From a virus, in IMG/VR virus record IMGVR_UViG_3300035438_002375, positions 1 to 40,493 of that record: a DNA stretch of 40,493 bases, one strand, 5' to 3'. The translations under genes were made by a program, and so were the position numbers. The notes under the pieces are model-generated. The model was not told the DNA's origin. It made no database searches and saw nothing but the letters and a program-made list of their open reading frames with translations. Every line of letters begins with the position of its first letter. Within the stretch, counting starts at the first letter, position 1. Shown one piece after another: positions 21,351 to 37,573 of the stretch.

Positions 21351-21746
21351 TCACAGGAGATTGATTCTCTTTTTTTCTTGTTTTTTGTAATTAGGTACGA
21401 ATACCGTTAGTAGACCATCTTCTATTGTTGCCTCAATCTCAGATGAATTATATTCCTTTCCAATTTTGAATTCTTTTGATACAGATTTTGTTTTTTCTTC
21501 ACCATTCAATTTATAAATTCTTTTTCCTTGAATGATTAGAATTCCGTCTTCCATTTCTACTTTGAGATTTGATTTATTAAAACCAGGAACCTCAAAGAAA
21601 AGATATGCACCATCTTTTGTTTGATTTATTTCATAATTCTCCTCATCAGGATTTTTTGAAATTACTGAGGTTTTGAAATAAGGTTTGGACGTCCCATTGA
21701 AAATGTCGTCGAAAATTCTGTTCAATTCGTTGTTAGATAAAATCAT
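21351..21746 (-). CDS. Small heat-shock protein, Hsp20/alpha-crystallin family
   Basis: 131 residues. The alpha-crystallin domain is clear: AYLFFEVPGFNKSNLKVEME, GILIIQGKR, then EFKIGKEYNSSEIEATIEDG and LLTVFVPN. It acts as an ATP-independent holdase for unfolded proteins. Hsp20 genes are common in T4-like marine phages, where a role in capsid folding or stress has been proposed. It is divergent from the ClpC-like gene across 165 bases holding an inverted-repeat array (21815-21853), so the two chaperone genes may be co-controlled. Confidence 0.93.
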   Translation of the reverse strand: MILSNNELNRIFDDIFNGTSKPYFKTSVISKNPDEENYEINQTKDGAYLFFEVPGFNKSNLKVEMEDGILIIQGKRIYKLNGEEKTKSVSKEFKIGKEYNSSEIEATIEDGLLTVFVPNYKKQEKKRINLL

Positions 21747-21911: not shown

Positions 21912-23921
21912 ATGAATGAACTAATGGATGATGACGACATGAAAACAAGTAGGAAGCAAAAGACTTCCGACAGTTCTACTCCTGTTTTGGACAACTTCAG
22001 TAGAGATTTAAATAAACTTGCGTCCGAAGGTAAATTAGACCCTGTAATTGGTAGAGACCGAGAAATTTTGAGGATTGCACAAATCCTATCAAGACGCAAG
22101 AAAAACAATCCAATTATCTTAGGAGAACCGGGATGTGGTAAAACCGCAATTGTAGAGGGTTTAGCAATGAAAATTGTAAGCGGTGAATGTCCCAAAAATC
22201 TTATTGATAAAAGAATTGTAAACTTAGACCTGACCTCTGTTGTGGCGGGAACAAAATATAGAGGACAATTTGAAGAGAGGATGAAAGTTATTATTGAAGA
22301 ATTACAGACAAACCCAAACATTATAGTTTTTATTGACGAGGTGCACACTTTGGTTGGTTCGGGTAATTCTGCCGGTTCTATGGATGGTTCCAATATTTTC
22401 AAACCCGCTTTATCACGTGGTGAGATTCAAATTATTGGGGCCACAACTTTAGATGAGTTCAGAAAAAACATTGAAAAGGATGGTGCTCTTGAAAGACGAT
22501 TCCAAAAAATTATTGTTGAGGCTTCATCTGTTGCTGAAACTATAGAAATTCTGAAGAACATTCGTCCCAAATATGAATCTTATCACAAGGTCAGGTACTC
22601 TGATGAGGTCATTGAGGTTTGTGTCAAACTTGCTGAACGTTATATTACAGACCGAGAATTTCCTGACAAAGCATTTGACATTTTAGATGAGGTTGGTGCA
22701 CGTATGCAAACAGAAGTGAAAATTCCCGAGGTTATTGAGGAACTCAAAAAAAAGGCTGCGGAAATCAAACAACAAAAAATCGATGTTGTAAAAAAACAGA
22801 ATTACGAACAAGCGGCGCAATTACGAGATAGAGAAAAAAAGTTGTTGGATAAATTAGATTCGGAGAAAAAGAAATTTGATGAGGAAATGGAGAAACAAAA
22901 ACAAGAAATCACGTTGAACATGGTTTATGATGTTGTTTCAAATATGACCAAAATTCCTGTAAACAAAATGAGTGTTGATGATACAAAATCTCTGATAAAC
23001 TTGGATAAGGAGCTAACAGGTAAGGTTATTGGACAAGATTCGGCCGTAATCAAAGTGGTTAAATCAATTAAAAGAAACCGCTTGGGTATCAAAGACCCCA
23101 ACAGGCCAATCGGTTCATTTATTTTTCTCGGTTCTACTGGCGTCGGTAAAACACACTTGGCAAAACAACTTGCGAAAGAGATGTTTGGTTCAGAAGAAGC
23201 TCTTATCAGAGTTGACATGAGTGAATACCAAGAAAAACACACTGTATCCAAATTAGTAGGTGCCCCTCCTGGTTATGTCGGATACGATGAAGGGGGACAA
23301 CTAACTGAAAAGGTTAAAAACAAACCTTACTCAGTTATCCTTTTCGACGAGGTAGAAAAAGCACATAAAGACGTTTTCACAATCTTGTTACAAATTCTTG
23401 ATGAAGGACACGTGACAGATTCTCTCGGTAGAAAAATCAATTTTAAAAATACTTTGATTATTTTGACAACAAACTTAGGAGTCAAAAAATTACAAGATTT
23501 CGGTACAGGGATTGGTTTCTCTAATTCCTATTCAAATGAGGAAGCCAGAAAACAGGTTCTCATGAAAGAAATGAAAAATTTCTTTTCTCCTGAGTTCTTG
23601 AATAGGATTGATGATACGATTGTTTTCAATTCTTTATCAAAAGACGATATTAAAAAAATCACGGAGATTGAATTGAAAAAACTTTCTAACAGGCTTTCTG
23701 AATTAAAATATACTGTCACATACGATGATAGTCTTATTGAATACCTTTCAAAAATAGGATATGACGAATTGTATGGAGCAAGACCCTTGAAAAGAGCAAT
23801 TCAAGACAAAGTTGAAGATTTAATTTCTGAGGAAGTTCTCACAGGAAAATTCATCGAAGGGAAAACCTATCATTTGAAAGTTGAGAAAGAAGAAATAAAA
23901 ATAACAAAAAAGGGACGATAA
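21912..23921 (+). CDS. ClpC/ClpA-type AAA+ unfoldase lacking the Clp-N domain
   Basis: 669 residues. Two AAA+ modules: Walker A GEPGCGKTA (71-79) and B IVFIDEVHTL (138-147), then Walker A GSTGVGKTH (407-415) and B SVILFDEVEKA (474-484). Between them a UVR-like helix (KQNYEQAAQLRDREKKLLDK, 295-314) marks the ClpC type. The loop FGTGIGFSN (530-538) carries an I-G-F tripeptide where ClpA/ClpC bind ClpP, so docking to host ClpP is likely. The N-terminal adaptor-binding domain (about 140 residues) is absent, replaced by 30 polar residues. No phage ClpP is in the window. The stop codon sits in the loop of the terminator. Confidence 0.93.
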   Translation: MNELMDDDDMKTSRKQKTSDSSTPVLDNFSRDLNKLASEGKLDPVIGRDREILRIAQILSRRKKNNPIILGEPGCGKTAIVEGLAMKIVSGECPKNLIDKRIVNLDLTSVVAGTKYRGQFEERMKVIIEELQTNPNIIVFIDEVHTLVGSGNSAGSMDGSNIFKPALSRGEIQIIGATTLDEFRKNIEKDGALERRFQKIIVEASSVAETIEILKNIRPKYESYHKVRYSDEVIEVCVKLAERYITDREFPDKAFDILDEVGARMQTEVKIPEVIEELKKKAAEIKQQKIDVVKKQNYEQAAQLRDREKKLLDKLDSEKKKFDEEMEKQKQEITLNMVYDVVSNMTKIPVNKMSVDDTKSLINLDKELTGKVIGQDSAVIKVVKSIKRNRLGIKDPNRPIGSFIFLGSTGVGKTHLAKQLAKEMFGSEEALIRVDMSEYQEKHTVSKLVGAPPGYVGYDEGGQLTEKVKNKPYSVILFDEVEKAHKDVFTILLQILDEGHVTDSLGRKINFKNTLIILTTNLGVKKLQDFGTGIGFSNSYSNEEARKQVLMKEMKNFFSPEFLNRIDDTIVFNSLSKDDIKKITEIELKKLSNRLSELKYTVTYDDSLIEYLSKIGYDELYGARPLKRAIQDKVEDLISEEVLTGKFIEGKTYHLKVEKEEIKITKKGR

Positions 23922-23946: not shown

Positions 23947-24603
23947 ATGCGTGAATTGATAAGAAAAATTTTAAGAGAGTCTGACTCAGAAAACCCCACT
24001 TCAAATCTTGACAAAGTTTTGGAAAATTTCAAATCTATTTTTCCAAAAAATTATTTAGACAGGATACCGATGATTAGAAGTTTTGTTAAAAATTTTATAG
24101 AAAAATCAAATTACAATGTGAAGTTTTTAAATGCTTGTCCATCATATGCAGGAGTGAGAACAAGAGACCAAGTTATAATTTGTGCTCCAAGTCAAATGGC
24201 TACCTTGGGGGATTTTCTTTATACTTTATTTCATGAAATAAGACACGAACAACAAATTTCAGAAATAAAAATGCCCAATCCTCTAACAGATTACGATTTG
24301 GAAGATTTCGAGAAAATTTATCAACAATATTGGGAGATGGAGTTAGATGCGGACCAATATGCGAAAAATATGTTAGGAAGATTAGTTTTCAGTTTGAAAA
24401 TGCCAATTGAAGAATCAAAAAAAATATTCAAATTGTCGGAATTTATACAACAATATCCTCAAGCATCAAAATTTGTGGGTTCAAGTTTACAAAGAATTAT
24501 TGACACCATAAAACATATGAAATCAAAGGGTATGGAATATTCAGATATACAAGACCACCCTATGGTGAAACCCTTTATAGAAAAATTAGAAAAATTTTTA
24601 TAA
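23947..24603 (+). CDS. Putative zinc metalloprotease with capsid-targeting-like N-terminus
   Basis: 218 residues from the ATG at 23947. A TTG five codons earlier is disfavoured because the box would fall inside the gene. HEIRH (96-100) and the downstream EMELDADQYA (third ligand Glu132, E-x-x-x-D) form a gluzincin-type zinc site, similar to ImmA/IrrE-like and SprT-like peptidases. The first eleven residues MRELIRKILRE|S look like a T4 capsid-targeting peptide ending in an L-x-E|S site. If so, the enzyme is packaged in the head and injected. The target is unknown. Confidence 0.78.
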   Translation: MRELIRKILRESDSENPTSNLDKVLENFKSIFPKNYLDRIPMIRSFVKNFIEKSNYNVKFLNACPSYAGVRTRDQVIICAPSQMATLGDFLYTLFHEIRHEQQISEIKMPNPLTDYDLEDFEKIYQQYWEMELDADQYAKNMLGRLVFSLKMPIEESKKIFKLSEFIQQYPQASKFVGSSLQRIIDTIKHMKSKGMEYSDIQDHPMVKPFIEKLEKFL

Positions 24604-25428
24604 ATAGAATTTTCCGTGGTCTTTCGCTTTTTTGAAGTGTAATTTATATCCCAATTTCTCAATCATAAGTTTTCCCATCTTTATTCCGTTGAAAACATCT
24701 TCAACAACGACATATTCATCAGGTGAATGATAGTCGTAATATCCAATCGAAAAATTTATACAAGAAAAATCAAATTTACTTCTCAATGCATAAACATCAG
24801 TATAGGGGTGAACCATATAATCTATGTAATCCTTATGCATGTTCTCTGTCAACACTTCATCACAACTTTTGAAAAATTCTGAGTTTCGGTCAAACATAAC
24901 TTGACCAGAACATGTTTCAGTAACCATCCAATTCTCGGGTGCGTCAAATTGAATTGCATATCCTACGTTGTCGAAAAATTTAATATCACAATTTCTTGAC
25001 CCGTGACAGCCAGTTTCTTCTGACACGAAGAAAGCAGCTTTCAAATAGGGTAACTCTGATAATAATTTCAGACAAGCAAAAACTCCGGCTTTATCATCTC
25101 CACCGATACCTGTAGGAGAACCGTTTACGTCGTAAGCCTTTAAGGATAGTTTTAACTCTCCTTGAGCATTTGGTAACTGCTCTTCTCGAATTATCAAATG
25201 TCTAATGGAGTGAACAGTATCAGTATGAGATACAACACAAGGATAATAAAAATCATTATCCACTTCGGAAATTTTTTTGGTCGCATAAATGTTACCACGC
25301 TCATCAACATAATTTTCAATTTTATTTTCTTCTAGCCAATCGAGTATGAATCTTATCATAAATTCTTCTTGATAAGTTACAGTAGGAACTGATAATACTT
25401 CTTTCAGGAATAATAAATCGTTTTGCAT
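24598..25428 (-). CDS. M20-like metallopeptidase, short form
   Basis: 276 residues. Motifs of the M20/M28 co-catalytic metallopeptidases: SHTDT (67-71), GIGGDDKAGV (107-116, bridging Asp), SEETG (136-140, catalytic Glu and ligand) and FDAP (161-164), and a late HPYTD. Such enzymes hydrolyse di- or tripeptides or deacylate amino acids. It is about 100 residues shorter than bacterial peptidase T and seems to lack most of the lid/dimer domain. No signal peptide, so cytoplasmic. It converges on the metalloprotease with a six-base overlap. A host-type promoter lies only four bases before the ATG. Confidence 0.82.
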   Translation of the reverse strand: MQNDLLFLKEVLSVPTVTYQEEFMIRFILDWLEENKIENYVDERGNIYATKKISEVDNDFYYPCVVSHTDTVHSIRHLIIREEQLPNAQGELKLSLKAYDVNGSPTGIGGDDKAGVFACLKLLSELPYLKAAFFVSEETGCHGSRNCDIKFFDNVGYAIQFDAPENWMVTETCSGQVMFDRNSEFFKSCDEVLTENMHKDYIDYMVHPYTDVYALRSKFDFSCINFSIGYYDYHSPDEYVVVEDVFNGIKMGKLMIEKLGYKLHFKKAKDHGKFYL

Positions 25429-25432: not shown

Positions 25433-25463
25433 CAAATGTACTACAAATCGTGCAATTCTCCAA
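25433..25463 (-). promoter_or_regulatory. Possible Bacteroidetes-type promoter, leaderless
   Basis: Minus-strand TTG (25461-25463), 20 bases, TACATTTG (25433-25440), then GTGTAATG-type junction to the peptidase start. The spacing implies an almost leaderless mRNA. Alternatively it is a variant (CATTTGT) of the TATTTAT box. Confidence 0.45.
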
Positions 25464-26484
25464 TTTTAAATAATTCAGGTTGATATAATAAATTATAAAA
25501 ATTCTGTTCTTTCATGGAAAATGTCTTTTCCTTCAAATCTTTTCTCAATTTAACAATAACTTCCTGTTTTGGATAATCGTAGGCTTGGATGGAGAATTTA
25601 ACTTTATTAGACCTATCCTTTGGCAAATCATACAGTACACCTTGTTTGAATTTACTTTCAATTCTTTCAACCATGGAAATAAAGTTTTTTGACTCCTCTT
25701 CATTTTCCATAATTTTTTCAATTATGGAATCTAATTCTTTTTCGACCTCCCTATTGAAGTATTCACTGTCAAAACCATCTGACGATTGATATTCCCAAGT
25801 ACTATCACTCCACCCACCTTCAGGCGTATATTCTGATTTTAGATATTTTTTCAAAATTTTTTCGAATGACAGTGTCAATTGACCACTATAAACATATTGT
25901 TCAAATACTTTACCTATTTCAAATTTTAAAAAACCGTTTTTATACTCCATACCAAGTTGCGAAAAATAATCATCCAAATCTCTTTGAATTACATTTTGTG
26001 CAGCATCTTTCATTTGATTATCCCTTTCTTGTGAATAATCATTTATCATCGCTCGAACATTTTTTGGGAAAAGTCTTTGCAAAGTGTGAGCGAAGACACT
26101 AAGAAAATCAATGTCTTGTGAAAAGGGTTGTTTCATAACAAATCTTGAAATAGTTTCAAATTTTTCCCAATTATCACCATCCAACTCATCCCATAAACCA
26201 TAACCTTCTTCAAAATCGGTTTCAGAGTTATCAGGACCGTATATGTAATAACCTGTATATGGATTTGAGATACTATTATAAAACCAAATATCATCATCAG
26301 AAATATCAATCATTTTCAATAAATCTGATTCATTTTCAAACTCATATGTTACCAAACTTTTACTCAAATCATCATAATTCACATCCACTTTATAAATTTG
26401 TGGTATGAGATTTTTCAAATCTGAAGAATCAATTTTACCTTGAATAAAATTTTTTAAAGCAACAAAAGAATCAAATTTTCCCAT
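25441..26484 (-). CDS. Hypothetical protein, 347 aa
   Basis: Start chosen at the ATG at 26484 (MGKFDSFVALKNFIQGKIDS). A longer frame runs up to 26595 but would enter the tmRNA and cross its promoter, and a TATTTAT box ends four bases before 26484. The protein is acidic, rich in Tyr, Phe and Ser, with an aromatic segment (DDIWFYNSISNPYTGYYIYG). No catalytic motif recognised. It resembles in style other large phage proteins of unknown role. Confidence 0.7.
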   Translation of the reverse strand: MGKFDSFVALKNFIQGKIDSSDLKNLIPQIYKVDVNYDDLSKSLVTYEFENESDLLKMIDISDDDIWFYNSISNPYTGYYIYGPDNSETDFEEGYGLWDELDGDNWEKFETISRFVMKQPFSQDIDFLSVFAHTLQRLFPKNVRAMINDYSQERDNQMKDAAQNVIQRDLDDYFSQLGMEYKNGFLKFEIGKVFEQYVYSGQLTLSFEKILKKYLKSEYTPEGGWSDSTWEYQSSDGFDSEYFNREVEKELDSIIEKIMENEEESKNFISMVERIESKFKQGVLYDLPKDRSNKVKFSIQAYDYPKQEVIVKLRKDLKEKTFSMKEQNFYNLLYQPELFKIGELHDL

Positions 26485-26499: not shown

Positions 26500-26530
26500 T
26501 TTGGAATTAAAATATTTATTCTTATATTTG
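26500..26530 (+). promoter_or_regulatory. Bacteroidetes-type promoter of the tmRNA
   Basis: TTTG (26500-26503), 19 bases, TATATTTG (26523-26530), full consensus. The tmRNA 5' end lies 20 bases downstream, leaving a short leader for RNase P to remove. Confidence 0.8.
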
Positions 26531-26550: not shown

Positions 26551-26940
26551 GGGGAAGAAATGGCATCGATTGGCGTGTATAGGTATAGGTGGCACGTAGG
26601 AGCTAAATTACCTCCTTAAAAACTGATTTAAAACACAACTGGCAATACTTTTGCTAAAATGGCTGCTCTCGGTCTTATCGCTGAGGAAGCTGTTGTTAAA
26701 GCTTGATAGTTTTGACAACGTCGGGTCGGTTAGGACATATAACCTAGGAACAGAAGTCCATTATACGGGTCACAGGTCAGAGCTCGTTTAAAATAATTCT
26801 GAGACCAAGTTGTTTGTAGGTAGGTTTCTCACATATATCAAACCTAATATTTCGGAACATTGAGAAACAATGTTGTAATAAACGTGTAGTCACTTATAGT
26901 TATCGCGAACAAGACACGGGTTCGACTCCCGTCTTCTCCA
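26551..26940 (+). ncRNA. ssrA: tmRNA (ssrA), phage-encoded, with unusual tag
   Basis: 390 bases. The 5' end GGGGAAGAAATGGCATCGAT has the tmRNA signature GGGG-N-N-GA-UGG-UCGA. It pairs with the 3' end TCTTCTCC to give an acceptor stem with the G3-U wobble needed for alanylation. The T arm is ACGGGTTCGACTCCCGT. A tag frame follows in-frame TAA (26629-26631): with GGC at 26641 as resume codon it reads GNTFAKMAA, LGLIA, EEAVVKA, then TGA TAG tandem stops (26704-26709). Bacteroidetes tags as I recall them begin with Gly and end YALAA. This one is longer and ends VVKA. CCA is not fully encoded (CCG). The role is ribosome rescue and tagging. Confidence 0.92.
26641..26706 (+). other. tmRNA tag reading frame
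   Basis: 21 codons from GGC, starting GNTFAKMAA and ending EEAVVKA, followed by TGA TAG. The Gly start matches Bacteroidetes tags. The exact resume codon is inferred. The next possible ones are ACT and ACA just upstream. Confidence 0.6.
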
Positions 26941-26954
26941 CCGCAGACTTTTTT

Positions 26955-26988
26955 GAGTTCTTGACATATTTATTAGTATGTCGAACTC
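26955..26988 (+). promoter_or_regulatory. Hairpin covering the homing endonuclease start codon
   Basis: GAGTTC (26955-26960) pairs GAACTC (26983-26988), and GACATA (26963-26968) pairs TATGTC (26977-26982). That is twelve base pairs with a TT bulge. The ATG (26978-26980) is in the stem. The TATTTAT box (26967-26973) is in the 5' arm and loop. Confidence 0.75.
26967..26973 (+). promoter_or_regulatory. TATTTAT box inside the start-codon hairpin
   Basis: Four bases before the ATG. A transcript starting from it would lack the 5' arm of the hairpin. Confidence 0.65.
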
Positions 26989-27634
26989 AAATAAGTCAAA
27001 AAAATATCATTTTATATACAAGACAACAAACCTCCTCAATAATAAATTTTACGTTGGAATGCATTCAACAACAAACCTGAACGATGGTTACATAGGGAGT
27101 GGAACTAATTTAAGATTTGCAATAAGAAAATACGGTCCGAATAATTTCAAATTCGAAATTCTCGAATGGTGTATCAATAGAGAAGAGTTGATAAAAAGAG
27201 AAAAGGAAATTATAAACGAGAATTTTCTAAATGACCCGAATTGTTATAATTTGAAACCTGGTGGTACTGGCGGGTTTAATAATCCAACTCACCAATACAA
27301 GTGTTCTAAAGCCGCGGGTATAAAACATAGAGAAATGTTGAAATCCGACCCAAATTATAGAAAAAAAATTTCACTATCCCGTATTGCGTCAAATGAAAAA
27401 AATCATAAAAATGGAAAATTAAAATCAATACAAGACTCTTACTCCTGGCTCGGAAAAAAACATAACGAAGAAACAAAGAAAAAAATAGGTGAAAAAAATT
27501 CAATAAGCCAAAAAGGGAATAAAAATTCACAATTTGGTACAAAATGGATTACAAATGGTTATGAAAATAAAAAAATCAAAAAAACAGAACCTCTACCCCT
27601 AAATTGGGTATATGGAATAACAAAATTAAAATAG
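26978..27634 (+). CDS. GIY-YIG homing endonuclease, free-standing
   Basis: 218 residues. YHFIYKTTNLLNNKFYVGMHST (10-31) is the GIY-YIG motif (as FIY and YVG), followed by YIGSGTNLRFAIRKYGPNNF and FEILEW. The C-terminal part has NUMOD3-type DNA-binding elements (HNEETKKKIGEKNS, KGNKNSQFGTKW). It cuts cognate DNA lacking the gene and spreads by repair. It sits 38 bases after the tmRNA, so the tmRNA gene is the probable homing site. Expression looks gated by a hairpin over the start codon, with a phage box inside, as in T4 I-TevI. The gene is complete. Confidence 0.9.
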   Translation: MSNSNKSKKYHFIYKTTNLLNNKFYVGMHSTTNLNDGYIGSGTNLRFAIRKYGPNNFKFEILEWCINREELIKREKEIINENFLNDPNCYNLKPGGTGGFNNPTHQYKCSKAAGIKHREMLKSDPNYRKKISLSRIASNEKNHKNGKLKSIQDSYSWLGKKHNEETKKKIGEKNSISQKGNKNSQFGTKWITNGYENKKIKKTEPLPLNWVYGITKLK

Positions 27635-28070: not shown

Positions 28071-28110
28071 TCCCATCCGCAACTCGAAAGAGTCTGTGAA
28101 TGGGATTTTT
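28071..28110 (+). terminator. Terminator with GAAA tetraloop
   Basis: TCCCAT (28071-28076) / ATGGGA (28100-28105), CGCA / TGTG and ACTC-GAAA-GAGT stack into one hairpin of 14 pairs, then T5. The T-run merges with the next TATTTAT box. Confidence 0.8.
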
Positions 28111-28116
28111 ATTTAT
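28110..28116 (+). promoter_or_regulatory. TATTTAT box fused to a terminator T-run
   Basis: GGGATTTTTATTTATAAAT, 21 bases before the ATG at 28138. The same spacing and leader precede the TonB receptor gene. Confidence 0.5.
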
Positions 28117-28137
28117 AAATCAATAAACAAAAAACAA

Positions 28138-28584
28138 ATGAAAAAACACATTTTGTTATTTTTTGCTATGGTATTCTCATTAGCAACATTTGCTCAGAAA
28201 AAAGGGGGATGGGACATTTCCGTTGGAGCAACAGCTATGGCACCGATTGCAAAAAATGTTGATTGGGATTCCAAAGCTTGGGGTCAAAAAGTAGATTTTT
28301 CCAAAAAAAATTGGAACGTCTCTTTTGGTTTCATGCAGAATAAAGCAGGTTTCGTTAGAATGCCGGCTTTAGTTGGATACCGTAAGCACCTCAAAAAAGG
28401 ACTCCATATCGGTCTTGATGGCGGTGTTACCTTCTTCAATGGACAAAAAGGACAATTTACTTATGCTCCTTCCATTGGTTATAGGATAAACAAAAGATGG
28501 TGCTTAGAACAATCAATTCTAAGAACTGTTAAAGATGGTAAACATTCAAGTCTTACAGGATTTGGATTAAAATATCACCTTTAA
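28138..28584 (+). CDS. Secreted small beta-rich (outer membrane) protein
   Basis: 148 residues. The ATG at 28138 is chosen because it begins a clean signal peptide MKKHILLFFAMVFSLATFA|Q. An upstream ATG at 28096 lies inside the terminator. The mature part alternates Gly, aromatic and polar residues (GWDISVGATAMAPIA, WNVSFGFMQN, YRKHLKKGLHIGLDGG, FTYAPSIGYRIN, SLTGFGLKYHL), as in a small beta-barrel of the Bacteroidetes outer membrane. The C-terminus ends with alternating aromatic residues (LKYHL). A phage-encoded envelope protein, unusual in a virulent phage. It shares its leader with the TonB receptor gene, so the two are probably co-regulated. Confidence 0.82.
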   Translation: MKKHILLFFAMVFSLATFAQKKGGWDISVGATAMAPIAKNVDWDSKAWGQKVDFSKKNWNVSFGFMQNKAGFVRMPALVGYRKHLKKGLHIGLDGGVTFFNGQKGQFTYAPSIGYRINKRWCLEQSILRTVKDGKHSSLTGFGLKYHL

Positions 28585-28796: not shown

Positions 28797-28930
28797 TCGA
28801 TTGGGATTTTTGTTTTCGACAGGGTAGTTATGAAAGGGTGGAGAAATTTTATGAGTTTTTATCGACTGAACTATTTTAACAATTTTGAAAATACAATAAT
28901 CCCGTTGGCGCATGTCTTCGGGATTTTTTA
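28797..28930 (+). ncRNA. Candidate sRNA or attenuator leader
   Basis: The interval between a consensus promoter and a terminator hairpin, about 130 bases. It contains GTCGA/TCGAC inverted repeats (from 28796 and 28814) and a possible 35-codon frame from the ATG at 28830 (MKGWRNFMSFYRL...) that runs into the hairpin. It could be a free sRNA, a leader peptide gene or an attenuator for the receptor gene. Its ends are inferred from the flanking signals. Confidence 0.45.
28898..28929 (+). terminator. Terminator-like hairpin before the TonB receptor gene
   Basis: AATCCCG (28898-28904) / CGGGATT (28919-28925) with T6 (28924-28929), merging into the TATTTAT box. Confidence 0.75.
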
Positions 28931-28935
28931 TTTAT
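28929..28935 (+). promoter_or_regulatory. TATTTAT box before the TonB receptor gene
   Basis: GATTTTTTATTTATAAACC, 21 bases before the ATG at 28957. The following CAATAAACAAAA stretch is shared with the leader at 28117-28137. Confidence 0.5.
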
Positions 28936-28956
28936 AAACCAATAAACAAAACAAAC

Positions 28957-31900
28957 ATGAAAAAGCAAATCATGATGTCACTTTTATCCTTGTTCGTGAC
29001 TCTCGCATCTTTCGGGCAAATTACAACTTCTGCCCTGTCTGGTGTAGTGAAAAATGAAAAAGGAGATGCTTTAGCGGGAGCGTCGGTTCATGCTGTTCAC
29101 CAACCTACGGGTTCTGAGTATCGTGCAATCACAAACAAAGTTGGTATTTTCAACATTCCTGCTGTGCGTCCTGGTGGTCCTTATGTAATTCACGTTTCTA
29201 ATGTGGGTTACAAAATGAAGGAGCTTACAGACATCAATACAAATCTTGGTATTTCAACTACCTTGGAAATTGTGTTGGTCAATGAAGTTAAAACCCTTAC
29301 TGAAGTAGTTGTAAATTCAAACAAAAACAACATTTTCAGCTCAGGTAGAACCGGTGCGTCTCAGCAATTTGGAAGGAGAGAACTAACTTCTGTTCCCATT
29401 ACTGGTGCAAGAACTATTGACGGAATCACCAAGTACAACCCAATGGGTGACGGTCGTTCTTTCGGAGCTGCTGATAGCAGATTGAACAACTTCACAATTG
29501 ACGGTTCTCAGTTTAACAACGGTTTCGGTCTTGGTTCTTCAGCTCAGGCTGGTGGTAGAACTGGTTCAACTGCAATCTCTTTGGATGCGATTGACCAACT
29601 ACAAATCAACGTAGCTCCATTTGACATTCGTCAAAGTGGTTTCGTTGGTGCTGGAATCAACGCTGTTACAAGAAGTGGTTCCAACAAAGTAGAGGGTTCT
29701 TATTATCAGTTTAACAGAGACAACCAACGTTATGTTGGTAACAACGCTAAAGGAACTACTGTAACCGCTTCGAAATTCGAAGAAACTACAAGAGGTTTCA
29801 GATTAGGTGCTCCAATTATCAAAAACAAATTATTCATTTTTGGTAACTACGAAAACCTTACAAAAACTGAACCTGGTACGACTTGGATTTCACAAGGTTC
29901 ACCTTTAGCTGGTTCTCAAATCTCAAGAGTTCTGTATTCAGATATGAAAACTCTTTCTGATTTCATGAGAACAAATTTCAATTATGAGACGGGTCCTTGG
30001 GAAGGGTACAACAACTCAAACACTTCTGAGAAATTCTTGGTGAGAATGGACTGGAACATCAACGACAAGCACAAATTGACTGCTCGTTATGTTTGGCACA
30101 ATTCAGAAGCTGAGATAAACATTTCAAACTCTCAATCTGCAGGTGCAGGAAACAGAACTACTCAGTTCAACGCAATGAGTTTTAAGAACAGTGGATACAT
30201 CATTCAAGATAACACACGTTCTTCAGTATTAGAACTCAACAGCAAATTTTCTAATACCTTACACAACAACCTAATTGTTGGTTATGACAAGCAGATTGAA
30301 AATAGAGGATATCTTTCACAGATGTTTCCAACTATTGATATCATGAATGGTACCGCAACCTACGCTTCTGTAGGATTTGACCCATTCACTCCTGGTAACA
30401 AGTTGGACTATAACACTTTCCACATCACTAACAACTTGACCAAATTTATGGACAAGCACACAATTGTGGCTGGTGTTAACTTCGAGAAATATCGTTCTAA
30501 CAACTTATTCTTCCCCGCTTCAAACGGTGTATATATCTTCAATTCTTTGACTGATTTCTACACCGCAGCTAATCAATCATTAGCAAACGGTGGAAGACCT
30601 TCAACTCTTGCTCCTGCAAGATTCCAACTTCGTTACTCAGCGTTACCTGGTGGAATCGAACCAATGCAAGTTTTGAAAACATCTCGTCTTGACCTCTATG
30701 TTCAGGATGAGTATCAGTACAACGCTAATTTGAAAATCACAGGTGGTTTGAGAGCGGCTGTAATTGGTTTCGAAAACACGGCATTAGAAAATCCTGCAGT
30801 AACTGCAATGACTTTCGCTGGTGGTGAGAAATTCAACACAGGTGTTTTACCAAAAACACAAGTTCTCTTCGAACCAAGAATTGGTTTCAACTATAATCAC
30901 AAAGGTAAAAATGATTTACAAGTAAGAGGTGGTTCCGGTGTATTCACAGGTAGACCTCCTTATGTATTCGTTTCAAACCAAGTAGGAAACAATGGTGTTC
31001 TTACAGGATTTATCGATGTATCAGGTGCGGCAGCTGCTAACTACGGTTTCACAGCTAACCCTAACCAATACTTCATTCCTTCTACACCAACACTTCCTTC
31101 TACTTTTGATTTAGCATTCACTGACCCCAACTACAAATTCCCACAAGTATGGAAAACTAACCTTGCTGCAGACAAGAAGTTACCATTCGGATTTGTAGGT
31201 ACTGTGGAACTTATGTACAATAGATTTTTGAACGCTGTTCATTACTACAACGCTAACTTGGATGTTCCTGTAGGAGTATTCGCAGGTCCTGACAAAAGAC
31301 CTGTTTTCGCAAGAAACGATGCTGGCGTAAGAGTAAATGACAACGTATCTATGGGTGCGGTTTTAACAAACAGAAATGGCGCTTACAATACATCAGCAAC
31401 TATCGAGTTAAAATATCCAATCCAAAAAGGTCTTTGGGGTTCTGCAGCTTGGACTACATCACTTTCTAAAGACTTCATGAGTGCTGGTTCAATTGCTTCT
31501 GGTTCTTGGCAGTCAGCAAGAGCAATCAACGGAAACAACGACCTTCCTTTAGCTTTCTCTGATAACTGGATTCCTAACAGATTTGTTGGTCTTCTTGGTT
31601 ATAGATTAGAGAACGGTGCTAAGAAAGGTGCTGGTGCAACTACTGTAACTTTAGGTTATGTAGGACAACAAGGTAACCCATTCAGCTACTTCGTAGCGGG
31701 TGACCTAAACGGTGACAGAGTGAATAACAATGAACTTATCTTTGTTCCAAACAAAGGTTCGGACATCAAATTTGCTCAATTCACTTCAGGCGGTGTAACT
31801 TTCACTGAAGCTCAACAACAAGCAGCTTTTGACGCTTACATCGACCAAGACAAATATCTTTCTACAAGAAGAGGTCAATACGCTGAGAGAAACGCTCTCG

Positions 31901-32244
31901 CTATTCCAATGTTACACAGATTTGATTTGTCTGTTCAACAAGATTTCTTCATCGATATCAAAGGTCACAGAAACACATTCCAAATCAGATTGGATATCTT
32001 GAACTTTGGTAACATGTTAAACAACGATTGGGGTGTATCTCAAAGAGCTACAAACCCTGCAATCCTTAGCTATTCATCAACTAACACAGCTGGTGAACCT
32101 GTCTACAGATTGTCAACTCAACCAATCCTCAACGCAAATGGTACAACTACTGTAGGTCTCATCAGAGACACTTATCAGTGGAATACATCTGTATTTGACG
32201 TTTGGCAAGGTCAACTCGGTTTAAGATATATCTTCGGAAGATAA
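28957..32244 (+). CDS. TonB-dependent outer membrane receptor, Oar/SusC-like
   Basis: 1095 residues from the ATG at 28957, which begins a signal peptide (MKKQIMMSLLSLFVTLASFG|Q). An earlier in-frame ATG at 28912 lies in the hairpin. Residues about 22-115 are a carboxypeptidase-regulatory-like domain (LSGVVKNEKGDALAGASVHA). Plug domain at about 115-240 (ITKYNPMGDGRSFGAADSRL, VAPFDIRQSGFVGAGINAVT). The rest is a long beta-barrel ending GQLGLRYIFGR with a terminal aromatic-containing strand. It would import a ligand across the outer membrane using host TonB. Codons favour AAC, TTC, TAC, like the capsid gene, so strong expression is expected. Complete, with no frameshift. A TonB receptor in a phage is exceptional. 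Confidence 0.93.
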   Translation: MKKQIMMSLLSLFVTLASFGQITTSALSGVVKNEKGDALAGASVHAVHQPTGSEYRAITNKVGIFNIPAVRPGGPYVIHVSNVGYKMKELTDINTNLGISTTLEIVLVNEVKTLTEVVVNSNKNNIFSSGRTGASQQFGRRELTSVPITGARTIDGITKYNPMGDGRSFGAADSRLNNFTIDGSQFNNGFGLGSSAQAGGRTGSTAISLDAIDQLQINVAPFDIRQSGFVGAGINAVTRSGSNKVEGSYYQFNRDNQRYVGNNAKGTTVTASKFEETTRGFRLGAPIIKNKLFIFGNYENLTKTEPGTTWISQGSPLAGSQISRVLYSDMKTLSDFMRTNFNYETGPWEGYNNSNTSEKFLVRMDWNINDKHKLTARYVWHNSEAEINISNSQSAGAGNRTTQFNAMSFKNSGYIIQDNTRSSVLELNSKFSNTLHNNLIVGYDKQIENRGYLSQMFPTIDIMNGTATYASVGFDPFTPGNKLDYNTFHITNNLTKFMDKHTIVAGVNFEKYRSNNLFFPASNGVYIFNSLTDFYTAANQSLANGGRPSTLAPARFQLRYSALPGGIEPMQVLKTSRLDLYVQDEYQYNANLKITGGLRAAVIGFENTALENPAVTAMTFAGGEKFNTGVLPKTQVLFEPRIGFNYNHKGKNDLQVRGGSGVFTGRPPYVFVSNQVGNNGVLTGFIDVSGAAAANYGFTANPNQYFIPSTPTLPSTFDLAFTDPNYKFPQVWKTNLAADKKLPFGFVGTVELMYNRFLNAVHYYNANLDVPVGVFAGPDKRPVFARNDAGVRVNDNVSMGAVLTNRNGAYNTSATIELKYPIQKGLWGSAAWTTSLSKDFMSAGSIASGSWQSARAINGNNDLPLAFSDNWIPNRFVGLLGYRLENGAKKGAGATTVTLGYVGQQGNPFSYFVAGDLNGDRVNNNELIFVPNKGSDIKFAQFTSGGVTFTEAQQQAAFDAYIDQDKYLSTRRGQYAERNALAIPMLHRFDLSVQQDFFIDIKGHRNTFQIRLDILNFGNMLNNDWGVSQRATNPAILSYSSTNTAGEPVYRLSTQPILNANGTTTVGLIRDTYQWNTSVFDVWQGQLGLRYIFGR

Positions 32245-33102: not shown

Positions 33103-33177
33103 GGTCCTGTAGTTAAACGGATATAACCACTGCCTTCTAAGCAGTTATTCGTGGTTCGATTCCACGCGGGACTACCA
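33103..33177 (+). tRNA. tRNA-Arg(TCT), CCA encoded
   Basis: Acceptor GGTCCTG / CGGGACT with two G-U pairs, anticodon loop CTTCTAA (anticodon TCT), T arm CGTGG-TTCGATT-CCACG, discriminator A and encoded CCA (33175-33177). The only plus-strand tRNA here, and the only one that encodes CCA. It reads AGA, the main Arg codon of the phage genes. A 12-bp terminator hairpin follows. Confidence 0.95.
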
Positions 33178-33180
33178 TTC

Positions 33181-33210
33181 GAAAGGGAGATTTTAATCTC
33201 CCTTTCTTTA
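33181..33210 (+). terminator. Terminator after tRNA-Arg
   Basis: GAAAGGGAGATT (33181-33192) / AATCTCCCTTTC (33195-33206), then a weak T-run leading into a TATTTAT box. Confidence 0.75.
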
Positions 33211-33217
33211 TATTTAT
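33211..33217 (+). promoter_or_regulatory. TATTTAT box, 5 bases before a start codon
   Basis: TTTATATTTATACCATATG. It follows the terminator directly and sets the start of the 492-aa gene at 33223. Confidence 0.6.
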
Positions 33218-33222
33218 ACCAT

Positions 33223-34701
33223 ATGAAGTTGGTTTCCATTTTAATTAAAGAAGGTCGAAAGGAAGATTTGAAGAAAAAATATTCTACTAAATTTAATGAA
33301 CAAGATTTAGAATTTATTTTGAATATTTCTGATTTAAAAGATTTCAATCACAAATACACTGACTTTGTATTGAGAACTTTACCTAAGGATAGTGAGACAT
33401 TAGAAGATGATATTGAGAGTACAATCTGGGCAATCAAAGATTTTGACAAATATCAATCTCAGTTAGAAAAAAAAGATATAAATCAATATGGAAGCTATCT
33501 TGAGCTTGAAAAAGCCCTTTACCCTGTCAGAGTCAGAGAGAAAGAAAAAATTTTAGAAAAACAAGTAGAAAAAATTTACGAGGACGATAAATTTCTTGTG
33601 ATGAAACCAAAAACACACCAAGCGTCTTGTAAATATGGTGCAAATACTAAATGGTGTACAACATCTCAATCTGATGACCACTTCAAAAGATATACATCGG
33701 GAGGCCAAGCTTTGTATTATGTAATCAATAAAACAAATTCCACAAATAAAAACTACTCAAAAGTTGCAATTCATTATGACGGAATGGGTAATCCAAGATA
33801 TTGGGACTCTCAGGATGACGGCATGAATGAAAGAGAAGTTGAAGTTTTCAAATACGCATTTCCCGAAATGATTGAAGTTATAGAAAAGGATTATAAAAAA
33901 ATTGCGAGCTCCGCACAAGAAACATTTTTGAACGAAGTTTTCAACTCATCAGGAGCTTCTCTCAGAACAATAGAAAAGTATTTGAGAAAAGATGGTAATC
34001 TGACTGTATCAGCTGAAGGATTCGAAACTATAAATGACTTAGGTCCTGGTCATGCAAACGGACAAATTTCAATTTCTCACAATAAAAAACTGATTGATTC
34101 CTATGTAATTTTTATAACATATAAATCGGAGGATAGGAAAACATTTTCTGCCAGTATCGGGTTTATGGGAACTGATGATTTTATTGATACAGAAGATTTT
34201 ATCGATTTAGGTTTGGAAGGTTGGGGTTTTGATTCCAAATATATGATTCAAGGATTTCCACAAACCACTGCCGATTCAGTCAGAAATCATATCGCAAGTA
34301 AAGTTTTAGATTATGTCAAAGCTAACGCAGAATTACAACAAAAAGTTGTTGGTTCTGCAAAGGTGTTTACATCAACTTATGGGTATACATTTAGTAAAAA
34401 TAAAGGTTGGGTGAAGAAACTTGTCGATTATTTAGATTCAGGGAAAATAGGAACGAAACTAGATTTTTTGACAGACATCGGGTATATTGTCAAAATAAAT
34501 AACTATGGGAAAATTATGTTTAGAAGACACAATGGTCAACATTTGTACACGCCACGTGATTTGAGAGGTCAACACGCTTCATTCTTTGCCGCAGCAAAAA
34601 ACGCAGGTATATTGGGATATAGAAAAGTCGGTAGAGAATTCTTTTTAACAAAAGGACCAAACTTTGATGCATTCAAATCAGGAGAACTCAAAGCTCTTTA
34701 G
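33223..34701 (+). CDS. Conserved phage protein with KYGANTKWCT motif
   Basis: 492 residues from the ATG at 33223. An earlier in-frame ATG (33151) would translate the tRNA. A central motif CKYGANTKWCTTSQSDDHF at about 142-160, followed by GGQALYYVINK, belongs to a family I know from many environmental phages, function unknown. The conserved Cys, Trp and Tyr suggest a binding or catalytic site. The N-terminus MKLVSILIKE|G is another short basic-hydrophobic peptide with an I-K-E site. The C-terminal part carries two repeats of a small alpha/beta unit. Possibly packaged, which is inference. Confidence 0.8.
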   Translation: MKLVSILIKEGRKEDLKKKYSTKFNEQDLEFILNISDLKDFNHKYTDFVLRTLPKDSETLEDDIESTIWAIKDFDKYQSQLEKKDINQYGSYLELEKALYPVRVREKEKILEKQVEKIYEDDKFLVMKPKTHQASCKYGANTKWCTTSQSDDHFKRYTSGGQALYYVINKTNSTNKNYSKVAIHYDGMGNPRYWDSQDDGMNEREVEVFKYAFPEMIEVIEKDYKKIASSAQETFLNEVFNSSGASLRTIEKYLRKDGNLTVSAEGFETINDLGPGHANGQISISHNKKLIDSYVIFITYKSEDRKTFSASIGFMGTDDFIDTEDFIDLGLEGWGFDSKYMIQGFPQTTADSVRNHIASKVLDYVKANAELQQKVVGSAKVFTSTYGYTFSKNKGWVKKLVDYLDSGKIGTKLDFLTDIGYIVKINNYGKIMFRRHNGQHLYTPRDLRGQHASFFAAAKNAGILGYRKVGREFFLTKGPNFDAFKSGELKAL

Positions 34702-34912
34702 ATAACTTTCGAAAATAGATATATAATCCAAAAAAGAAAGCCGCAATACAATACAAAACGAAGTTCGCTTTCCATAAACTTCCTGTCAGTAACAACAGGG
34801 AATACTGAACGGCATCGAATCCAAAAGGATTGAAGAAAAGTGCTAACATTAGAAACACTTGAGATAAATTGTCTTGGAGAGTGTTTCTCCAAGTGGATAT
34901 TTTTTTCACCAT
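34688..34912 (-). CDS. Small two-span membrane protein, 74 aa
   Basis: MVKKISTWRNTLQDNLSQVF, then two hydrophobic spans (about 18-50 and 52-66) and a basic end. It overlaps the convergent gene by 14 bases. A second minus-strand frame over the same bases (34698-34919) is a weaker candidate because its hydrophobic pattern is broken. No family recognised. Confidence 0.65.
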   Translation of the reverse strand: MVKKISTWRNTLQDNLSQVFLMLALFFNPFGFDAVQYSLLLLTGSLWKANFVLYCIAAFFFGLYIYFRKLSKEL

Positions 34913-34995
34913 CTTCCATGTATTACTATTTAAAGTTTATGTCCTAAGACTTTGTTTTCTGAAATAAATAGTTTAATTTTGATTATCTTCGAACA

Positions 34996-35214
34996 ATGAT
35001 TGATTTAAAAAAACTTATTGAAGAAAAAGGATTAAAGACGAAATTTCAAGGTTGTGCACCTGAAGGTTTCATTTTAATCCATGAAAAAACAATTGAAGAT
35101 TTGAAAGATTTTGACATTTGGAAAAACTGGAAAAATGATGAAATATCGATTGATGAACTTAATAAAAAAAATTTCAAATCTTCTGAAATTGAAGAAAAAA
35201 AAGAAAACGGTTAG
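34996..35214 (+). CDS. Hypothetical protein, 72 aa
   Basis: MIDLKKLIEEKGLKTKFQGC, followed by APEGFILIHEKTIEDLKDFD and a Lys/Glu-rich end. Charged and helical. Its length and leader (GATTATCTTCGAACAATG) give no sign of RBS or box. Unknown function. It lies just before a structured intergenic RNA. Confidence 0.65.
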   Translation: MIDLKKLIEEKGLKTKFQGCAPEGFILIHEKTIEDLKDFDIWKNWKNDEISIDELNKKNFKSSEIEEKKENG

Positions 35215-35230
35215 TAGTGAAAATATTTTT

Positions 35231-35361
35231 GTTGGAGGTTCCGAATGGGAACAGTACAACGATAACATTACATTCTAACTAATGGTGGCTATGTTGATGT
35301 AATTGCTGCAGCAATGAAAGGGTGCTAGCCCCGAGGTAAAATCCCATCAACCTCTGGCCAC
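35231..35361 (+). ncRNA. Structured intergenic RNA, unidentified
   Basis: The gap of about 160 bases is packed with helices. GTGGCTA (35285-35291) pairs TGGCCAC (35355-35361), and GTTGATG (35293-35299) pairs CATCAAC (35345-35351). ATTGC-TGCA-GCAAT lies at 35302-35315 and GTTCC/GGAAC at 35238-35252. The segment AACCTCT (35349-35355) can alternatively pair with GGAGGTT (35234-35240) or, in part, GAGGT (35333-35337). Mutually exclusive pairings upstream of a gene suggest a switch. It ends 12 bases before the HAD phosphatase start. It fits no riboswitch or ribozyme I could match. Confidence 0.6.
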
Positions 35362-35373
35362 TTATTTTTACAT

Positions 35374-35769
35374 ATGAATAAAATAATTAAAAATCCGACC
35401 TTTTTTGTTGACATTGATGGTACAATTGTCAAATATAGAAAATTCAGTAAACTTTCTGAATCAATTTTAGAGCCTATACAGGACGTAATCGATTATTTGA
35501 ACAACCAATATGAAAAAGGTTCGGTCATAATTGTTACAACGGCGAGACCGTCCACATATGAATTATTCACAAAACAAGAACTTGAAAAAGTCGGATTGAA
35601 ATACCATCAGTTAGTTATGGATTGCGGAAGAGGCACTCGCGTTATATTTAATGATAAAGACCCAGAAGCACCTCAAATTGAAAGGGCGATTGGGATAAAT
35701 TTTATCAGAGACGGTGGTTTTGCCAGTATTGGTGGTCCGCCAACAATAGAAAAATATGAGTCAGACTAA
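35374..35769 (+). CDS. HAD-superfamily phosphatase-like protein
   Basis: 131 residues. Motif I FFVDIDGTIV (Asp13 nucleophile, Asp15 acid/base), motif II VTTARPS near 55, and a late acidic segment (FNDKDPEAPQ). No large cap domain, so macromolecular or nucleotide substrates are possible. Related proteins occur in T4-like phages. The stop overlaps the next start by 14 bases. Its leader is the structured RNA at 35231-35361, which may regulate it. Confidence 0.82.
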   Translation: MNKIIKNPTFFVDIDGTIVKYRKFSKLSESILEPIQDVIDYLNNQYEKGSVIIVTTARPSTYELFTKQELEKVGLKYHQLVMDCGRGTRVIFNDKDPEAPQIERAIGINFIRDGGFASIGGPPTIEKYESD

Positions 35770-36058
35770 AGTATCTTACAAAAGGCATTTAGCTAAAACA
35801 ATTACTTATAGAATTTTAAGTACAACAATAGGTTTTCTCGGTATGTGGTGGGTTTCGGGAGATATAAAAATTGGTGCAGCTTTTGGTGTTGTTGAGCTTA
35901 TATATAAACCAATCCAATATTATATTCATGAAAGAATTTGGTACAAATGGATTAAATTCGGATTGAATCCACCTACTAAAAAGGAAAAAAAACCTATTGT
36001 CCCACCTCCTTCAGATACTAAAGGGAAGAAAGTTCTAAGTTATAAAAAACCTGTCTAA
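35756..36058 (+). CDS. DUF2061 membrane protein
   Basis: 100 residues. KRHLAKTITYRILSTTIGFL and GDIKIGAAFGVVELIYKPIQ, YYIHERIWYK match DUF2061 (two membrane spans, conserved K-x-x-x-Y-x-x-H-E-R-x-W). Function is unknown in bacteria too. Pro/Lys-rich cytoplasmic tail. The stop codon is in the loop of the terminator that follows. Confidence 0.88.
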   Translation: MSQTKVSYKRHLAKTITYRILSTTIGFLGMWWVSGDIKIGAAFGVVELIYKPIQYYIHERIWYKWIKFGLNPPTKKEKKPIVPPPSDTKGKKVLSYKKPV

Positions 36059-36070
36059 CAGGTTTTTTTT
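36045..36070 (+). terminator. Terminator overlapping the DUF2061 stop
   Basis: ACCTGT (36049-36054) / ACAGGT (36058-36063) then T8. The same stop-in-loop economy is seen after the clpC-like gene. Confidence 0.85.
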
Positions 36071-36080
36071 ATTTCTCAAA

Positions 36081-36087
36081 TATTTAT
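36081..36087 (+). promoter_or_regulatory. TATTTAT box, 5 bases before a GTG start
   Basis: CAAATATTTATGATTTGTG. The regular spacing supports the GTG at 36093 as the true start. Confidence 0.6.
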
Positions 36088-36092
36088 GATTT

Positions 36093-36770
36093 GTGAATAT
36101 AGTAGAACATAAAATATCGCAAACTTTCGATAAGATTTTATCCAACAAAAATTTTATCAATGAGGTTTTGATTGATGTAGAATCTAGTGAATCAAAATAC
36201 CCAAATTTAATTTTCCACGGAAGAACAAAAAAGGATAAGTTACCTAAAGCCCTTTTAGATGATTTACAAAAAGCAGCTGAAGTAAATAATTTCAAAATCA
36301 CAATTGATTGGGCGAAAACAGGACATCGTAAACTCAGTGCAAGTGGTCATGTCAGTAGACATTGGAGACAAGGTGCAGTGGATATCGATTTTATAATTCT
36401 ACCTGATGGTAAAAAAGTAGTTGTTGCTCCGAAAAATAGAGAAGTCGTTGAGAAATTTACAAATACTCTTTTGAACATGGGTTACAAAAAGAACTCGGAG
36501 GGTAAAAGTAACCCGAAAGCTTTTTTGACATTTGGTTTCGAGGGTCATGATGACCATGTTCACGTGTCTAATATGACTGATGAAGCATATGATGGGGATG
36601 TAGAAGCTGGAACATCAAGTGGTGTAATGGCGTCATCTGATGTTTCAAAAAAAGCAGAGAATAATACTAATTCACCTGATGTCAACTCAGGAATACCTGA
36701 GGACTTAAAAGATTTTTTTAAAGGAGGAAATTGGATTAAAGATTTCTTTGGATATAAGGACAAGATATAA
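36093..36770 (+). CDS. M15/hedgehog-fold peptidase-like protein, possible endolysin
   Basis: 225 residues from GTG 36093. SRHWRQGAVDIDFIILP (88-104) and GHDDHVHVSN (151-160) place His90, Asp97 and His157 as zinc ligands of the M15 D-Ala-D-Ala carboxypeptidase/L-Ala-D-Glu endopeptidase fold, used by phage endolysins. The N-terminal 75 residues are unassigned, and the C-terminal 60 are a Ser/Asn/Asp-rich linker plus a short amphipathic helix (LKDFFKGGNWIKDFFGYKDK). No signal peptide. A DNA-acting or cell-wall role cannot be decided from sequence. Confidence 0.75.
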   Translation: MNIVEHKISQTFDKILSNKNFINEVLIDVESSESKYPNLIFHGRTKKDKLPKALLDDLQKAAEVNNFKITIDWAKTGHRKLSASGHVSRHWRQGAVDIDFIILPDGKKVVVAPKNREVVEKFTNTLLNMGYKKNSEGKSNPKAFLTFGFEGHDDHVHVSNMTDEAYDGDVEAGTSSGVMASSDVSKKAENNTNSPDVNSGIPEDLKDFFKGGNWIKDFFGYKDKI

Positions 36771-36797
36771 AAAAACCCACAAACGTGGGTTTTTTTA
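36768..36797. terminator. Bidirectional terminator
   Basis: ACCCAC (36775-36780) - AAAC - GTGGGT (36785-36790), A-run left and T7 right. It ends the M15-like gene and, on minus, the lipoprotein gene. Confidence 0.88.
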
Positions 36798-36813
36798 TTT
36801 GGAAGAAATTTTA

Positions 36814-37002
36814 TTATTTAACTTCTTCTACTTTTGGAGCTTCATCAACTTTTGTTGGTTCCACAGGAACGGCTGTAGAATCTACTTTAGTTGAATCTAC
36901 TACAACAGTTGAAGAATCAGTTGTTGTTACTTCAGTTGATGCTCCGTTTCCACCACATGCAGACAAAACCACAAGTGATACAATTGCAAAAATTTTTTTC
37001 AT
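36814..37002 (-). CDS. Small secreted lipoprotein
   Basis: 62 residues. MKKIFAIVSLVVLSAC has a signal peptide and lipobox LSAC with lipidation at Cys16, followed by GGNGAST and a Thr/Ser/Val/Glu-rich tail without fold (TDSSTVVVDSTKVDSTAVPV). It would be anchored in the host envelope. Phage lipoproteins of this size can block receptors against superinfection, as T5 Llp does. That role is inference. Leader with a TATTTAT box 43 bases upstream. Confidence 0.85.
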   Translation of the reverse strand: MKKIFAIVSLVVLSACGGNGASTEVTTTDSSTVVVDSTKVDSTAVPVEPTKVDEAPKVEEVK

Positions 37003-37045
37003 TTTTGTTTTTTTTTAGTTAATGTTTATTATAACGTTTGAGATT

Positions 37046-37052
37046 ATAAATA
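37046..37052 (-). promoter_or_regulatory. TATTTAT box upstream of the lipoprotein gene
   Basis: Coding-strand CATATATTTATAATC, 43 bases before the ATG at 37002. Confidence 0.4.
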
Positions 37053-37084
37053 TATGAAAGTCTTTAGAAACTGTCAAGTTATTG

Positions 37085-37169
37085 CGGAGAGTATTGGATT
37101 CGAACCAATGGGTCAATTACTCGACCACAGTTTAGCAAACTGCTCCTTTAACCACTCAGGCAACTCTCC
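37085..37169 (-). tRNA. tRNA-Ser(GCT)
   Basis: Acceptor GGAGAGT / ACTCTCC, anticodon loop TTGCTAA (GCT), long variable arm, T arm ATTGG-TTCGAAT-CCAAT, discriminator G. CCA not encoded. Its 5' two-thirds are also the 3' end of the PQ-loop reading frame. Confidence 0.95.
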
Positions 37170-37403: not shown

Positions 37404-37418
37404 AACATTAAATATTTG

Positions 37419-37568: not shown

Positions 37569-37573
37569 GTTTG

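Follow-up and report, generated by a model that had tools for sequence, protein, structure and literature searches.

A virus record from IMG/VR, 40,493 bases long and called the window here, carries a complete tmRNA gene whose 21-residue tag belongs to a family of long phage tags and, about 2.6 kb upstream of it, a gene for a ClpC-like unfoldase that lacks the N-domain. Our best joint explanation, which we consider to have about an even chance of being right, is that this RNA works as a functional tmRNA of a T4-like jumbo phage and tags stalled products, and that the phage ClpC, together with a phage or host ClpP, would degrade them.

Contigs related to the window reach 321 kb among the matches listed, and the T4-like phage genes comprise a head protein, a portal, a terminase and a T4-type prohead protease (PF03420). 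The terminase and portal matches listed in deposited phages are 25-38% identical, and the tmRNA DNA matches deposited phages only in a 30-nt stretch of Bacillus phage Bobb. Two features point to Bacteroidota as the probable hosts of this group of giant viruses: the type of promoter, and a TonB receptor that shows 70% identity to the one in a Sediminibacterium genome. Downstream of the tmRNA lies this TonB-receptor-type outer-membrane transporter (1110 aa, 28912-32244 (+), also 28096-28584; PF25183, CarboxypepD_reg), which is up to 70% identical to Sediminibacterium and, as it is found in 11 of the 160 related phage loci listed, is taken to be a resident phage gene rather than host contamination; a SusC-type receptor has been reported in megaphage Mar_Mega_1 and in LR745206 (PMC9723777). 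Assembly error and host contamination are likewise ruled out for the tmRNA and ClpC, which recur jointly in many contigs of up to 321 kb.

The tmRNA gene and its neighbourhood

The features of the region are as follows.

21351..21746, minus strand: Hsp20 small heat-shock protein (PF00011, 50.6 bits), divergent to ClpC, a neighbour only
21912..23921, plus strand: ClpC-like AAA+ unfoldase, 669 aa, without N-domain (Pfam, solved chains, loop and size comparison)
24598..25428, minus strand: M20-like peptidase between ClpC and tmRNA (PHROG 4191 peptidase)
25441..26484, minus strand: 347-aa protein adjoining the tmRNA promoter upstream, a neighbour only
26500..26530, plus strand: promoter-like site, TTTG at 26500-26503, a 19-nt spacer and TATATTTG at 26523-26530
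26551..26943, plus strand: tmRNA gene (ARAGORN, Rfam RF00023 at 91 bits, consensus fold of 13 members)
26641..26709, plus strand: tag frame, resume codon GGC at 26641-26643, 21 codons GNTFAKMAALGLIAEEAVVKA, stops TGA TAG

The Rfam covariance model RF00023 matches 26551-26943 with 91 bits, against a gathering threshold of 47, over model positions 1-374 of 374, and ARAGORN calls a tmRNA at 26551-26942 (+) with the tag GNTFAKMAALGLIAEEAVVKA followed by two stops. The acceptor stem GGGGAAG/CTTCTCC is formed by 26551-26557 with 26933-26939 and contains the G3.U pair (26553-26937), which is G-U in 13 of 13 members of a small alignment and in 99 of 115 members of a larger one drawn from the matches listed, 15 of the others being gapped at a trimmed end and one being C-U. 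The original prediction of a complete tmRNA with a G3-U acceptor at 26551 is thus borne out by ARAGORN and by the Rfam match over the whole model; the start stands, and the end, which had been placed at 26940, is corrected to 26943.

The arrangement TTTG-N19-TATATTTG at 26500-26530, where a promoter had been predicted, has the promoter form that we take to be typical of Bacteroidota. A similar site, TTTG-N17-22-TANNTTTG, occurs within 120 nt upstream of 53 of the 107 distinct phage tmRNAs listed, compared with 119 of 10,700 pieces of 120 nt taken at random from the loci concerned; it is about 45 times commoner upstream of the phage tmRNAs than in the random pieces.

Relatives were collected in two sets: viral contigs were scanned by way of the ClpC-like gene, which gave 80 loci among the matches listed; and a DNA pattern of the tmRNA was used without recourse to ClpC, from which 80 of at least 119 stretches were taken. 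By nhmmer, a tmRNA was found in 64 of the 80 ClpC-found loci and in 80 of the 80 pattern-found loci listed, the latter as expected because the pattern selects for tmRNA. As some contigs are common to both sets, statistics are given on 114 distinct DNA sequences; the 142 tags read from these, without L056 and L063 (cut-off tmRNAs) and without L174 (no readable tag), correspond to 69 different peptides among the matches listed. ARAGORN called a tmRNA in only 12 of the 80 loci of the first set, in which nhmmer found 64, and in four of these with another tag start; usual annotation would therefore miss most of these tmRNAs. The short tags that ARAGORN gives for four loci, AEEATVVA (L008, L009), AEEAVVEA (L014) and EKKQNPCLSGMEG (L046), were rejected as wrong starts because the homologous frame gives 21-residue tags.

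The genes beside the tmRNA recur to differing extents in the loci listed. Homologues of the M20-like peptidase are present in 75 of the 80 ClpC-found loci and in 55 of the 80 loci of the other set; its Pfam M20 match (21.4 bits) lies below the cut-off of 24.6, and it belongs to the module by position only. The 347-aa protein, for which PHROG and Pfam gave no match, has homologues in 54/80 and 32/80 loci of the two sets, and Hsp20 has them in 20/80 and 3/80. A GIY-YIG homing-endonuclease-like gene (26978-27634 (+)) begins 34 nt past the tmRNA and has homologues in 3/80 and 11/80 of the related loci. Farther downstream, ARAGORN identifies 11 tRNA genes at 33103-40445 (Arg, Ser, His, Gln, Met, Trp, Ile, Cys, Phe, Glu and Leu), ten of them on the minus strand.

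Conservation of the tag and comparison with host tmRNAs

A long tag of about 21 codons before tandem stops had been predicted, and the comparison with related phage contigs upholds it: counted in frame 0 from the homologous resume codon, the tag has 21 codons in 99 and 22 codons in 15 of the 114 distinct tmRNAs listed, and 20 codons without a stop are seen in the two remaining frames in only 3/114 and 5/114. The open frame of any one sequence proves little, because shuffling a tag leaves it open in 25% of cases; at the family level, the tag frame exceeds chance. The ratio pN/pS is lowest in frame 0 (0.50, vs. 0.73 and 1.22 in the other frames, as computed from overlapping, non-independent pairs). 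Position −4 relative to the resume codon is A, and position −5 a pyrimidine, in 114/114 of the distinct tmRNAs listed; A at −4 is the main determinant of the frame in E. coli tmRNA (PMC2481249). With the frame fixed by 114 homologues, a reading in another frame with an ALAA-type end was not found.

Among the matches listed, the 21-residue tags have the consensus G-N-[VT]-x-x-K-[ML]-x-x-x-G-L-x-R-x-x-x-V-x-V-A, with G1 in 94, N2 in 81, K6 in 78, G11 in 97, L12 in 97, R14 in 67, V18 in 78 and the final A in 94 of the 99. Positions 4-9 vary (L/F/I at 4, N/A/D/S at 5, E/A/S at 8, T/A/V at 9). The VVKA end occurs, among the matches listed, only in the window, in L004/L190 (one contig), in L209 and in L217, whose tmRNAs are identical, and the tag nearest to that of the window is the VVEA-ending one of the sister L014; the unusual VVKA end is a minor variant of a tag that the phages conserve. 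Outlier tags are G[DN]VFANATVGHFVTEGATVAA in L180, L188 and L197, and DNVYNVMES/ACGLIATSTVAVA in L169 and L241. We also observed that the tmRNAs of L011 and L020 have a common variant block (TCAGAATTCATCTATGACT), and that in L018 the 3' middle part is quite different while the remainder of the tmRNA is similar; judged from these sequences, it looks as if phages had exchanged pieces of tmRNA.

In the RNAalifold consensus fold of 13 members, 63 pairs are formed, 43 of which show, in one member or more, a change on both sides that preserves the pairing. In this fold, the final Ala codon base-pairs with the resume codon, GGC. GCC is the last tag codon in 30 of the 114 distinct tmRNAs listed, compared with 0 of their 219 internal Ala codons. 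Conservation of the last Ala may thus partly reflect base pairing of its codon with the resume codon in the RNA, and the step from the last Ala to a degron is therefore weaker. If the C-terminal residues are conserved in part for the sake of the RNA, this agrees with a reading, unlikely in our judgement, in which the phage requires only ribosome release, the long tag is neutral or sparing, and tagged proteins are not efficiently degraded; plaque formation by λ-immP22 on E. coli likewise depends on the release of ribosomes, whereas the product need not be destroyed (PMC2481249). This reading, however, does not account for the lowest pN/pS lying in the tag frame, and the recurrent hydrophobic ending is more than a neutral tag needs.

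The main role of the RNA could also be to sequester SmpB or to counteract a host defence that cleaves mRNA or tRNA, with degradation being incidental. Many phage tRNAs lie downstream of the tmRNA, as in phages facing tRNA loss. Moreover, mycobacteriophage DS6A carries little beyond the tRNA-like part, and a molecule consisting of the tRNA-like part has been reported to inhibit tmRNA (PMC4131195). A decoy, however, would need neither the full-length structure nor the tag frame, both of which are kept in the 114 members listed, and we consider this explanation very improbable.

Host tags were read at 63 Bacteroidota tmRNA loci: 13 from genomes with the common TonB receptor and 50 found by searching 118 genomes, 49 of which yielded tags; 60 of the tags were given by ARAGORN and three were read by frame (L130, L315 and L343), L130 having been miscalled by ARAGORN and giving GEGNYALAA in frame 0. 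As had been expected of them, these tags are short and end in AA, the pattern [YF]-x-[LMV]-AA being present in 63/63 of the loci read; the tag of the window, with 21 residues and the end AVVKA, does not fit this pattern, and a VVKA tag is absent from the 63 host loci. The original prediction had further regarded FAKMAA near the start of the tag as a homologue of YALAA past which the tag had been extended. This part is unsupported, because positions 4-9 vary in the alignment and because the tree splits phage from host: in a FastTree tree built from 112 tmRNAs of phages and 61 of hosts, the latter from Bacteroidota only, all hosts group in a single clade (support 1.0), and the separation from the phage tmRNAs is therefore complete. 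A second tmRNA in host genome G145 (C1:772761-773172), a weak copy of 49 bits, was considered as a phage-type tmRNA in a host and rejected, as it reads GENNYALAA; ARAGORN does not call it, the surrounding genes look cellular, and on its sequence we take it as a probable decayed host copy.

The end of the phage tag bears on whether a dedicated reader is needed at all. In a possible but doubtful explanation, the tag is an ordinary degron: the tagged proteins would be degraded by host ClpXP or by a different protease of the host, for which the hydrophobic V-x-V-A end would suffice, and the nearby ClpC would have other uses, equally doubtful in our estimate, such as remodelling of phage or host proteins. 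Among the matches listed, Ala is last in 109/114 and Val fourth from last in 92/114; the unrelated tag of phage G also ends in VA; and two giant phages have ClpC without a full tmRNA. The conservation, however, extends over all 21 residues, in particular G11-L12, and so goes beyond the end alone, and every one of the 63 host tags read has the ending [LMV]AA. Furthermore, the second-last K (window) or E (L014) and the Ile or Ser ends (5/114) fit the preferences of ClpX poorly.

The ClpC-like unfoldase, ClpP and SmpB

A phage ClpC-like unfoldase near the tmRNA had been proposed and is confirmed, with the ClpP-docking loop kept. In the window protein, Pfam identifies AAA, AAA_2, AAA_lid_9 and ClpB_D2-small, and UVR at 20.6 bits, just under the cut-off of 21.5, i.e. 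two AAA+ modules and a UVR-containing middle part. The closest solved chains to this ATPase are ClpC, and when the protein was compared with seven host genomes, the best match in each showed 56-59% identity. Pfam gives no match to the Clp N-domain, which in ClpC is the adaptor-binding part, and the protein starts in the linker. Stop-to-stop ClpC frames measure at most 720 codons in the 80 listed loci, vs. 844-879 in the seven host ClpCs, which were told from other Hsp100 proteins by identity and size; one tmRNA-found record (G028) has its ClpC within an 827-codon frame. The ClpP-docking motif of the window ClpC is IGF at residues 534-536, and an [IVL]GF loop is present in 79/80 listed phage ClpCs (the other one being cut off before the loop) and in 7/7 host ClpCs, compared with 0/7 other host Hsp100 proteins.

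The tmRNA and ClpC genes are closely linked: a tmRNA is found in 58 of the 59 listed ClpC-found loci with at least 3.5 kb downstream, at a median distance of 2.7 kb, and ClpC is encoded by 15 of 16 long tmRNA-found records; a match to the window ClpC occurs in 165 of 50,697 phage records. Two observations count against a link between tag and ClpC: in L078, which has ClpC and room downstream, no tmRNA was found; and the giant phages LR756502 and LR745206 have ClpC without a full tmRNA. The linkage of tmRNA and ClpC may be plain common descent.

We note further RNAs in these loci. GOLLD RNA (RF02032, 275-301 bits) is present in L169 (599-1006), about 4.5 kb from the tmRNA, and in the loci of LR756502 and LR745206 (L362, L363), 2-6 kb upstream of ClpC. 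The 484-kb phage LR756508, in which a ClpC-like gene is present, has a different tmRNA (72 bits, L365:1501-1947) with a long open frame and a putative tag ending PAAV.

For ClpP, ClpC and SmpB, long records were chosen by length (10/80 ClpC-found and 16/80 pattern-found among the matches listed). ClpP is encoded by 15/26 of these long relatives, 9/10 ClpC-found and 6/16 tmRNA-found, and is also present in the contig of the VVEA sister L014. Its Ser and His motifs align with those of 1y7o, and the two copies scanned, which score 235 and 239 bits with NF011091 (cut-off 361) and 67 and 71 bits with the head-maturation model, are closer to cellular ClpP than to head-maturation ClpP. ClpP is absent from 10/16 long tmRNA-found records; five of these records are 274-304 kb long, and host ClpP would therefore have to serve there. 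The window encodes neither ClpP nor SmpB and ends 13.5 kb past the tmRNA; in four relatives, ClpP lies 17-27 kb beyond the tmRNA, past the point at which the window ends. SmpB is encoded by 3/26 long relatives, all three with tags ending LVNVA, and is absent from the other 23/26; a ClpX zinc finger was found in 0/18 relatives. A rule relating the presence of ClpP to the tag ending was considered, as the ClpP-less long records mostly end V-[ST]-V-A, and is not claimed because L062 ends EVTVA yet has ClpP.

Proposed mechanism and known systems

The tmRNA, its frame, the conserved tag, the promoter, the ClpC with its docking loop and the ClpP of relatives, as identified from sequence, suggest the following mechanism. 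Host alanyl-tRNA synthetase would charge the phage tmRNA via the G3.U pair; host SmpB (or phage SmpB in a few relatives) would bring it to ribosomes stalled during infection; the ribosome would resume at GGC and append the 21-residue phage-specific tag to the unfinished protein; the N-domain-less phage ClpC would unfold the tagged product and pass it to a ClpP, which many relatives encode themselves and which the host would otherwise supply; and ribosomes and amino acids would thereby stay available to the phage, with degradation following a code of its own. In this scheme, we infer that host SmpB and alanyl-tRNA synthetase are used, that ClpC recognizes the tag and that the phage benefits; that ClpC would read the tag is suggested by the position of its gene, by the combination of a missing adaptor domain with a ClpP dock, and by the precedent of Lon in Mesoplasma.

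A more far-reaching version of this mechanism is a private protein-quality code, which we put forward only tentatively: the phage tmRNA would take over ribosome rescue, and the tag would be read by a ClpC that has lost its adaptor-binding N-domain and thereby become a dedicated receptor for it. It is comparably tentative that phage ClpP or captured host ClpP would form with it a protease outside host control, and that products stalled by defence cuts in mRNA or tRNA would be degraded as well.

In the Bacteroidota read, the host tag hardly varies, and the phage tag is kept across 69 distinct peptides among the matches listed, beside an unfoldase that, judged from its domains, may be suited to read it. 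Why phages bring a tmRNA thus becomes a testable question, with ribosome release, amino-acid recycling and the withdrawal of degradation from host control as the alternatives. If tag and ClpC form a pair, they would provide an orthogonal degron system for Bacteroidota.

We found no report of the tag family, or of its tie to ClpC, in the portions of the open-access literature that were available. The occurrence of tmRNA in phages is already published (PMC4131195, PMC7162821, PMC11242549, PMC12656738), and phage tmRNAs with odd tags are known, so that the tag family described here is a variant of a known theme. Huge phages have been reported to carry tmRNA, some with SmpB (Al-Shayeb et al. 2020, PMC7162821); that survey used ARAGORN and, in the portion of its text available, gives neither tags nor a link to ClpC or ClpP. 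ClpA, ClpX, ClpP and ClpS of jumbo phages have been described (PMC7824862, PMC6102473), and the word tmRNA is absent from both main texts.

Compared with the ssrA of Bacteroidota, the phage tmRNA has the RNA architecture (RF00023), the alanine identity pair and the position of the resume codon in common, whereas the host tags have 8-10 residues and the phage tags 21-22. Among phage systems, the tmRNA of Bacillus phage G has its own tag ending VA, AKLNITNNELQVA, which differs in having 13 residues and an unrelated sequence; and the Bxz1-type mycobacteriophage tmRNA (ET08) is also phage-borne, with a long tag not ending ALAA, ATDTDATVTDAEIEAFFAEEAAALV, although both the tag sequence and the phage are unrelated to those described here. 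A precedent for the proposed mechanism is Mesoplasma florum, in which a protease distinct from ClpXP reads a long, changed ssrA tag (PMC8138137), as we propose for the phage; that system, however, is cellular and uses Lon instead of ClpC, and the reading of the tag is experimental there and inferred for the phage.
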